A stretch of DNA of 23,974 nt, taken from positions 1 to 23,974 of IMG/VR virus record IMGVR_UViG_3300032242_000812; one strand, 5' to 3'. Made by a program: the position numbers and the translations under genes. Of this stretch, positions 2,597-19,955 are shown piece after piece (within the stretch, counting starts at the first letter, position 1; every line of letters begins with the position of its first letter). The notes beneath the pieces were generated by a model. That model saw nothing but the letters and a program-made list of their open reading frames with translations, did no database searches and had not been told where the DNA came from. This stretch comes from a virus.

Positions 2597-2610
2597 CGAA
2601 CATATGTTCG
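2597..2610. promoter_or_regulatory. SOS (LexA) box 1
   Basis: CGAACATATGTTCG is a perfect 14-bp palindrome matching the CGAAC-N4-GTTCG consensus of LexA in actinobacteria and Bacillus, flanked by T on the left and GA on the right. It lies about 100 bases upstream of the main early promoter. Confidence 0.7.
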
Positions 2611-2633
2611 GACGGGGGCAGGGGCAGGGGAAT

Positions 2634-2647
2634 CGAACAGGTGTTCG
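2634..2647. promoter_or_regulatory. SOS (LexA) box 2
   Basis: CGAACAGGTGTTCG again fits CGAAC-N4-GTTCG with perfect arms. Including flanks, the 17 bases TCGAAC-N4-GTTCGGA equal those of box 1 except for two centre bases, and the two boxes are 37 bp apart. A leftward GATAAT (2654-2649) stands directly beside it, so LexA bound here could cover a start point. Confidence 0.7.
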
Positions 2648-3019: not shown

Positions 3020-3035
3020 TGTGACAGACATCACA
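3020..3035. promoter_or_regulatory. Crp-family (GlxR-like) binding site
   Basis: TGTGA-CAGACA-TCACA matches the TGTGA-N6-TCACA consensus of Crp-family regulators perfectly, including the GlxR and Crp proteins of actinobacteria. It lies about 300 bases upstream of the terminase gene and just after a TATACA (3013-3018), so it could control rightward transcription. Chance occurrence is possible. Confidence 0.45.
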
Positions 3036-3046
3036 CACCAAAAAGC

Positions 3047-3067
3047 GGAGGATAAGCAAAATCCTCC
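3047..3067 (+). other. Hairpin containing a ribosome-site-like sequence
   Basis: GGAGGAT and ATCCTCC form a 7-bp stem around the loop AAGCAAA. The left arm would be a fine ribosome site, but no start codon follows at a useful distance. It may be an RNA structure in the leader of the late transcript. Confidence 0.35.
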
Positions 3068-3114
3068 ACCTTAATATAAGTAGGGGTTAAATTAACTTAC
3101 CTTTGTCATTACAC

Positions 3115-3324: not shown

Positions 3325-5244
3325 TTGGCCAAGCCACAGAGCAATACCTACAAGTTGGCCGAAGGGGCCACGCTCTCAGCCCCTGAGGCAAAGAAGCGCA
3401 TTCTCGCGCTCATTGAAGAAGGCGTCACGGTTGAGGACTCATGTCGCGCCGTAGGCAAGTCAGTCAAGTCTTACGAGTACTACCGCTCTAGTGACCCGCA
3501 GTTCAAACAAGCCATTGACCTTGCCAGGGTAATTAAGAAGCGAGCAGGCAAAGTATCTGATGAAGACAAGGATATTTCTTTTGAGGACTTCAGAGCCAAA
3601 TACCTAAGCAGCCAGACCTTCCCACACCAGAGAAACATTATCTCTCTCTTGGAAGAAGGGCAGCCTGCCTGGCTGCACCCTAATATGATATTTGAGCAGG
3701 GCTTTAAGAACTACGTGCTCTGCAACATGCCTCCTGAGCATGCCAAGTCTATGACAGTCAGCATTGACTATGTGACCTATAGGATAGTCACAGACCCAAA
3801 TGTAAGAATTAAGTTGGTGTCCAAGACAGCCACGATGGCCAAGGAGTTCCTTTATGCCGTCAAGCAAAGACTCACCTCACCACAGTACGCAGAACTCCAG
3901 CGTCGTTACGCTCCAGTTGAAGGCTTTAAGGCTACTGCCGAAAAGTGGACACAGGACGCTATTTACATCGAACGCGACTCAGGTGAAAAAGACCCTACCC
4001 TCCAGGCTCTTGGTATTGGTGGTCAGATTTACGGTGCTCGTGCTGACCTTATTATTCTTGATGACTGCGTTACCCTGGCTAATGCTAATGAGTATGAGAA
4101 ACAGATTCGCTGGATTCAGCAAGAAGTCTTAACCCGTGTCGGCCCTACAGGCAAGATTCTAGTAGTTGGTACACGCGTTGACCCATTAGACCTTTACCGT
4201 GAGATGCGTAACCCAGACCGCTACCCTGAAGGGGTATCGCCCTGGACCTACCTCGCAATGCCAGCCGTCCTAGAGTTTGCCGATGAGGCCAAGGACTGGC
4301 AGACATTATGGCCCAAGTCAGACCGTCCCTGGAATGGGGATGAGGTCGAAGCAGATGCCGATGGACTCTACCCTCGCTGGGATGGGCACAACCTTAAACG
4401 CCGTCGCGGTGTCCTAGACCCAAAGACCTGGGCTATGGTTTACCAGCAGCAAGATGTTGAGTCAACAGCCATCTTTGCTCCTGAAGCCGTTCGAGGTTCA
4501 GTCAACAGTCTACGCCAAGTCGGCCCAATTAACAAGGGCGTACCTGGCCACCCAGACCTGCAAGACCAATACGTTGTTTGCTCTATGGACCCAGCCATGT
4601 CGGGAGATACATTCTCCACCGTGCTCGCTGGTGACAAGACTACAGGCAAGCGTTACCTGCTTGACGCATCACGCATGCCAGCACCTACACCGCAGGCTAT
4701 CCGTGACCTTATCTTCAGTTGGACTGAGAAGTACCACCCAAAGGTATGGGTAATTGAGAAGAACGCTTTCCAGTTGTTCCTTACCCAAGACGAACAGATT
4801 AACAAGTTTCTTGCTACACGAGGCATCCGCCTTGTTCAGCATTACACAGGTGGCAATAAGATGGACGCCGAGTTTGGTGTTGCATCTATGTCAGCCCTCT
4901 TCGGCAACCTGGACAATCAGGGTAAGCACATCAAAGGTACAAACCTTTTGGAATTACCACGCACTGACAACGAACACGTCAAGGCTCTAGTCGAGCAATT
5001 GATTACGTGGTCAGCAGGAACTAAAGGCAAGCAGGATGGACCAATGTCCCTCTGGTTTGCTGAGACTCAGATGAGAGATTACATCAACTCAATGGGTGCA
5101 TACGGTGGAAGTTTTGTTAAGAACAAATACGCCACACGCGGAGACATCGCTCGCCGCAAAGTAGTAAACCTAGAAGAGTACGCAAAGATGCAAGAACAAC
5201 TAGCAGTTAACGGAGGCACATTCTATGGCCATGGATATAGATGA
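3325..5244 (+). CDS. terL: Terminase large subunit
   Basis: This is the DNA-packaging motor and headful or cos nuclease, 639 residues. After a helix-turn-helix-like N-terminus (about residues 19-65, EAKKRILALIEEGVTVEDSC onwards) comes the ATPase: a Walker-A-like PPEHAKS (136-142), Walker B LIILDD (242-247) and a GTR coupling motif (282-284). The RNase H-like nuclease follows with acidic residues in SMDP (Asp422) and VIEKN (Glu478) and a later Asp. The usual Gly before the Walker Lys is Ala here. The start is TTG: an in-frame stop lies at 3304-3306, no ATG or GTG intervenes, and AGAGG stands 7 bases before it. The end overlaps the portal gene by 20 bases. No separate small subunit gene is seen in this window, and the N-terminal module may take its place. 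Confidence 0.93.
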   Translation: MAKPQSNTYKLAEGATLSAPEAKKRILALIEEGVTVEDSCRAVGKSVKSYEYYRSSDPQFKQAIDLARVIKKRAGKVSDEDKDISFEDFRAKYLSSQTFPHQRNIISLLEEGQPAWLHPNMIFEQGFKNYVLCNMPPEHAKSMTVSIDYVTYRIVTDPNVRIKLVSKTATMAKEFLYAVKQRLTSPQYAELQRRYAPVEGFKATAEKWTQDAIYIERDSGEKDPTLQALGIGGQIYGARADLIILDDCVTLANANEYEKQIRWIQQEVLTRVGPTGKILVVGTRVDPLDLYREMRNPDRYPEGVSPWTYLAMPAVLEFADEAKDWQTLWPKSDRPWNGDEVEADADGLYPRWDGHNLKRRRGVLDPKTWAMVYQQQDVESTAIFAPEAVRGSVNSLRQVGPINKGVPGHPDLQDQYVVCSMDPAMSGDTFSTVLAGDKTTGKRYLLDASRMPAPTPQAIRDLIFSWTEKYHPKVWVIEKNAFQLFLTQDEQINKFLATRGIRLVQHYTGGNKMDAEFGVASMSALFGNLDNQGKHIKGTNLLELPRTDNEHVKALVEQLITWSAGTKGKQDGPMSLWFAETQMRDYINSMGAYGGSFVKNKYATRGDIARRKVVNLEEYAKMQEQLAVNGGTFYGHGYR

Positions 5245-18297: not shown

Positions 18298-19955
<1,658 letters not shown>

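Follow-up and report, generated by a model that had tools for sequence, protein, structure and literature searches.

LexA-type boxes as exchangeable elements in the control region of putative freshwater actinophages

Two perfect palindromes of the LexA type lie in the control region of an environmental virus, which raises the question of what protein would read them there and to what end. The window, by which we mean the whole stretch of 23,974 nucleotides analysed here, is an IMG/VR virus record of ~24 kb whose near-full-length relatives reach ~41 kb, and the boxes sit in a non-coding region of ~900 bp between two divergent operons. On the right, rightward genes on the + strand begin with the terminase large subunit, TerL (3325–5244; PHROG 38, E 2.4e-64), the first of the structural genes, and continue with portal, major head protein and further structural genes. 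On the left, a series of small genes runs along the − strand, headed by a gene of 50 aa without assigned function (2272–2424) whose ATG is preceded by a purine-rich, RBS-like AAAGGCAAGAA. Far downstream (18642–19955), the window encodes a predicted protein whose long repeats resemble collagen (Pfam Collagen, E 1.4e-58), after which comes a glycosyltransferase family 2 gene.

Box 1 (CGAACATATGTTCG, 2597–2610) and box 2 (CGAACAGGTGTTCG, 2634–2647) are 14-bp palindromes placed 37 bp apart, start to start, and both fit CGAACRnRYGTTYG. The initial annotation had described them as two exact matches to CGAAC-N4-GTTCG with common flanks, and both descriptions hold: the matches are perfect, and within TCGAAC(N4)GTTCGGA 15 of 17 positions agree between the boxes. 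They are the only two perfect CGAAC-N4-GTTCG sites in the entire window, for which a first-order Markov simulation predicts 0.009 such sites, and none of 2,000 simulated windows contained two, in keeping with the earlier claim that such a pair is very unlikely by chance. A chance pair is ruled out by this simulation together with mirror and permuted control palindromes, which occur in 0 of the 58 lineage-A control regions described below. Both boxes also agree with the LexA operator sequence (CGAACRnRYGTTYC / TCGAAC-N4-GTTCGA). For Gram-positive bacteria, Actinobacteria included, the consensus reads CGAACRnRYGTTYC, and the strongest half-site in Actinobacteria is TCGAACA (PMC2248561); the LexA motif of Streptomyces venezuelae is tCGAAC-N4-GNNCGa (PMC9380542). 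That the hosts of these phages have a LexA, and one of this specificity, is presumed from the literature on other Actinobacteria.

Evidence on the host comes from the genes of the phage group; INPHARED gave no close phage DNA match to the window. WhiB is an actinobacterial hallmark, and a WhiB gene is carried by 13 of 17 examined contigs of the group, among them all five relatives in which a whole-contig search found a perfect box; it is absent from the window fragment. By protein, the nearest TerL sequences are those of LanE43-AprE7 and LanE43-AprF5 (47% identity), followed by Streptomyces phages at ~43%. PMC10202952 presents the former two (hereafter E7 and F5) as the first phages of 'Ca. 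Planktophila' to be cultured and as lytic for their host. WhiB in the group and a TerL closest to those of Planktophila and Streptomyces phages together constitute an actinophage signature, and on these grounds the host is almost certainly an actinobacterium, and probably a freshwater one. A TerL scan of genome contigs returned a single match, a phage contig of the group (L083) contained in a beta-proteobacterial metagenome-assembled genome, a placement that is probably due to misbinning.

Conservation across related phages, proposed in the initial annotation as a check, proved to be of a particular kind: the boxes recur in three TerL lineages and are absent from most relatives. TerL searches yielded 80 loci for the window's own lineage (lineage A) and 80 each for lineages B and C, whose TerL proteins are ~47–50% identical to that of the window's lineage; 81 stretches were gathered through a conserved AT-rich anchor. 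Lineage A contains 20 perfect boxes in 11 of 58 non-redundant control regions, where shuffled regions give 0.05 sites, and perfect boxes occur in 4 of 52 and 9 of 47 control regions of lineages B and C, respectively. The relatives without boxes include L003, E7 and F5. Across 164 non-redundant regions from the three lineages, CGAAC ranks first among all 5-bp palindrome arms at a gap of 4, being found in 29 regions, whereas other orders of the same letters average 0.31. These regions hold 53 perfect sites; single-mismatch sites number 11 where 3.2 are expected, and double-mismatch sites 43 where 43.6 are expected, so that the site is mostly either perfect or absent. The N4 core is of the form R..Y in 52 of the 53 perfect sites (A..T in 43) and in these agrees with the LexA consensus of Gram-positive bacteria. 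All seven perfect sites that a whole-contig search of 16 relatives recovered, in five contigs, fall in the control region as judged by position. Among viral-contig stretches, at least 120 carry tandem boxes at intervals of 10–40 bp, compared with 19 for a composition-matched control palindrome, and the cores of these boxes are R..Y in 254 of 285 cases (16 of 41 for the control). Helically phased pairing of boxes for looping was rejected, the spacings (36, 37, 41, 47–51, 63, 82 and 111) showing no phase.

The initial annotation had further noted that the window lacks a phage repressor, and this was borne out, with no LexA, S24 or HTH_3 family match in its ~24 kb. The LexA DNA-binding domain (PF01726), searched for in the window alone, is absent from it, and the 17 contigs of the group, two of ~41 kb and all possibly incomplete, yielded no S24 (PF00717) and no HTH_3 (PF01381) match above cut-off; a phage-borne repressor of the LexA/S24 or HTH_3 type was accordingly discarded as a candidate for these contigs. 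Integrase and resolvase families have no match in the window, nor were a tyrosine integrase or a resolvase found in the same 17 contigs, and a temperate phage with an integrase was set aside on this basis. The gene content thus described fits a virulent or non-integrating phage. The missing integrase does not settle the lifestyle, however, as the Bacillus thuringiensis phage GIL01, a non-integrating prophage, is temperate without one (PMC4551915, PMC6182141).

Taken together, the perfect arms, the R..Y core, the strong enrichment that three TerL lineages show at a single genome position, the WhiB host signature and the failure to find a phage repressor in 17 contigs support the view that the window sites behave like actinobacterial, or more broadly Gram-positive, LexA operators, and make host LexA their likely ligand.

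What such operators might control depends on where the promoters are. The initial annotation had placed a leftward GATAAT beside each box; the hexamers exist (ATTATC at 2564–2569 and 2649–2654) but are not conserved in relatives, and as a box-side promoter the motif is not supported: the GATAAT beside box 2 is GCTAAT in the close relative L004, and in the window it has no −35 partner. Promoters over the boxes were likewise rejected, with promoter-like scores of 6.55 versus 6.84 at random positions. In many relatives, a scan of the leftward strand instead found a strong promoter of the form TTGACA-N17-TATCTT or similar directly ahead of the first leftward gene. Its counterpart in the window, the putative early promoter P_L (− strand; −35 TTGACG at 2495–2500, −10 TTTACT at 2472–2477, 17-bp spacer), was read from the sequence, is weaker than those of relatives and was not picked by a stricter promoter scan. 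LexA control of leftward early transcription, as originally suggested, therefore stays plausible on other grounds, whereas the promoter geometry claimed for it is unsupported, given that GATAAT is not conserved, has no −35 and lies at boxes from which the conserved promoter is well downstream.

The boxes are found upstream of P_L in the control region and do not overlap the core promoter. Among relatives, the distance from the P_L −35 up to the promoter-proximal box is 33, 41, 43 or 54 bp, or 52 bp in three related loci; other boxes stand at least 136 bp upstream, with distances reaching >400 bp. In the window, ~103 and ~140 bp separate the box centres from the downstream −35, more than is typical of a repressor site, and this counts against the model that we favour. 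The unphased box spacings, the lack of an above-random promoter at the boxes, their absence from most relatives and the replacement of the box segment in L047 (see below) weigh against it as well. Between or beside these elements are candidate sites for other regulators. CRP-like sites (TGTGA-N6-TCACA with up to one mismatch) peak at two distances upstream of the −35, 18–19 bp in 10 loci and 28–29 bp in 3, and the difference of one helical turn is what an activator would be expected to show; a LexA box abuts the TGTGA site in L402, L020, L386 and L391, and in some phages the CRP-like site stands between the LexA box and P_L. In the window its place is taken by a palindrome, TGACCAG-N4-CTGGTCA (2508–2525), separated by 7 bp from the P_L −35 and possibly an activator or repressor site; TGGTCA is enriched in relatives (38 sites against 11.6 expected). 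Another palindrome and putative regulator site, TTGAATGTTCAA (2553–2564), has the form TTGAA-N2-TTCAA, which occurs 13 times in 12 of 58 regions (0.1 expected) and also in E7 and F5. It is often part of a composite, ATGGTCATTAG-TTGAANNTTCAAC.

Our preferred reading, which we judge moderately probable, is that the boxes are host-LexA operators forming an SOS-responsive cassette between the early and late operons and acting on P_L; we infer the binding of LexA, its action on P_L, the direction of the effect and the consequence for infection from the arrangement of sites. In an undamaged cell, LexA dimers bound upstream of P_L would keep the leftward early promoter down, hindering upstream activators (at CRP-like or TGACCA-type sites) or RNA polymerase while leaving the core promoter uncovered. 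RecA-driven cleavage of LexA, caused by damage or by phage replication itself, would then free P_L. LexA would thus act as an upstream repressor or anti-activator whose operators are carried as a swappable cassette, and it is the distances of the boxes from P_L together with the adjoining CRP-like sites that point to hindered activation rather than to a covered core promoter. If so, these seemingly lytic viruses probably read the damage state of their host.

Boxes that stand off core promoters, at distances from P_L ranging from 33 to >400 bp and in one to three perfect, presumably high-affinity copies per genome, would also suit LexA decoys: multiplying phage genomes would titrate LexA and thereby induce repair and nucleotide genes of the host, while a phage promoter would be little affected. 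We consider this unlikely: a decoy could be anywhere, whereas the sites found in whole contigs are all in the control region and the proximal boxes are positioned 33–54 bp from the P_L −35, and titration requires a high copy number.

The distribution of boxes indicates that they have been gained, lost or exchanged repeatedly, a conclusion drawn from their presence in three TerL lineages and from the TerL tree of 46 lineage-A rows, on which having a box needs seven changes, six of them forced by well-supported branches, so at least six to seven changes of state. The trait is clustered, yet not of one origin. The window forms a clade with L004 and L005 in which every member has boxes. Across the control region L047 hardly differs from L046 and L143, except that ~80 bp holding both boxes have been swapped for sequence with DnaA-box-like motifs; the exchange starts at a conserved GGACTGTCC element, as does that between L007 and L008/L011, and this element, at 2693–2701 in the window, is a frequent boundary of exchanged operator cassettes, present in 33 of 58 regions (~4 expected). 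By comparison with L240, a box of L291 has decayed at two bases. The boxes thus move as a cassette. The initial annotation had held that loss of the boxes in close relatives that otherwise keep the region would tell against it, and the outcome is divided: L003, which has the highest TerL identity (95%), is without boxes, but the rest of its operator region is also unlike that of the window, and L047 keeps a nearly identical control region with only the box segment replaced. Together they point to replaceable modules rather than essential parts. Where relatives have LexA boxes, L003 has short direct repeats (GGACATA-type, ~9-bp period), and CGGACA/TCGACA repeats are seen in the control regions of other relatives.

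The replacement in L047 by sequence of the TTATCCACA type, along with similar DnaA-like boxes beside the LexA boxes of L043, L005 and L148, would suit a replication origin or a switch between replication and transcription in which host LexA and DnaA sites are interchangeable. This strikes us as very unlikely, in that DnaA-like sites are weakly enriched overall (16 against 7 expected), most box-bearing regions are without them, and no replication origin is known to use LexA boxes. To the same low probability we assign operators of a phage-encoded regulator that shares LexA specificity by chance: some relatives (L004) encode small HTH/RHH-like proteins and a large share of the gene content is without assigned function, but the domain searches described above found no such repressor in the 17 contigs and no LexA DNA-binding domain in the window, the sites appear and vanish between near relatives, and the R..Y preference of the core is that of the LexA consensus.

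The rightward half of the control region has conserved parts of its own. A terminator-like hairpin read from the sequence, AACCC-CA-GGGTTTTA (+ strand, 2893–2908), has counterparts in 43 of 58 regions, and Rfam has no match in the control region between 2400 and 3400. Least probable of all is that the boxes control a short rightward transcript, such as an antisense or regulatory RNA, ending at this terminator near 2893, for although the hairpin is common and a rightward TAATCA-N17-TATAAT abuts the outer box in L278 and L294, other boxes, the window's included, have no such promoter, Rfam offers no RNA family, and the sequence from box to terminator is poorly conserved.

Beyond the hairpin, the conserved AT-rich anchor ATATTTTTTATAAATATAGG (2944–2963), found on 81 viral-contig stretches, is possibly a late promoter element. 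Two conserved rightward elements upstream of TerL, TAAATATAGG / TTAATATANNTAGGGG (2944–2963 and 3071–3086), look like phage-sigma late promoters, and relatives encode a sigma-70 region-4 protein; a sigma-70-type factor is encoded by most of the longer contigs and by E7 and F5. A CRP/GlxR-like palindrome, TGTGACAGACATCACA (TGTGAC-N4-NTCACA; 3020–3035), is present in 51 of 58 regions and in E7 and F5 as well. Its distances to the anchor fall near 43, 54, 65, 76, 84, 98, 107, 119 and 130, in steps of ~10.9 bp, with equal periodicity in 7 of 5,000 random sets. The widely conserved hairpin at 3041–3067 (GGAGGAT...ATCCTCC, followed leftward by a T run) is probably a leftward terminator.

That host LexA can control phage genes directly is already known. 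In GIL01, host LexA acts directly on the early promoter P1 (PMC4551915, PMC6182141), and as in the phages described here there are CGAAC...GTTC-type boxes and no classical repressor; GIL01 is temperate, however, with boxes located downstream of the P1 start and a phage helper, gp7, whereas the sites described here are perfect palindromes on the upstream side of the likely promoter, in tailed phages of Actinobacteria in which no integrase was detected. In S. venezuelae, LexA directly targets some prophage genes, which damage strongly induces (PMC9380542); that regulon shares its actinobacterial motif with the window boxes, but its sites are imperfect and belong to a resident prophage, whereas the tandem sites described here are perfect and are met repeatedly in phages from the environment. 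The Planktophila phages E7 and F5 (OX376640, OX376641; PMC10202952), with TerL ~47% identical to that of the window, resemble the group in their WhiB and sigma-70 genes and in the CRP-like and TTGAA-N2-TTCAA palindromes of the control region upstream of TerL, and differ from the window in that neither genome has a perfect LexA box. Our literature search found no paper on LexA in Nanopelagicales or on LexA boxes in freshwater actinophages. As far as that search shows, what appears to be new is an exchangeable, often tandem LexA-type cassette in environmental tailed actinophages, without a detected integrase or repressor and beside CRP-like and other palindromes.

More tentatively, and with a minor though real chance of being correct in our estimation, a large group of freshwater actinophages that lack integrase and repressor may possess no switch protein and instead borrow host LexA, a CRP-like protein and possibly DnaA through exchangeable cassettes upstream of the early promoter, with LexA conveying damage, the CRP-like protein energy state and DnaA replication state, such that host regulators would compute the decision to lyse fast or wait.

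In lakes, which are constantly exposed to UV damage, few forms of life outnumber freshwater actinobacteria and their phages. If the phages described here do sense the SOS response through LexA without being classical prophages, a damage-dependent switch would be possible in phages without a repressor gene, where annotation based on proteins only would miss it. Sunlight could then directly time infection.
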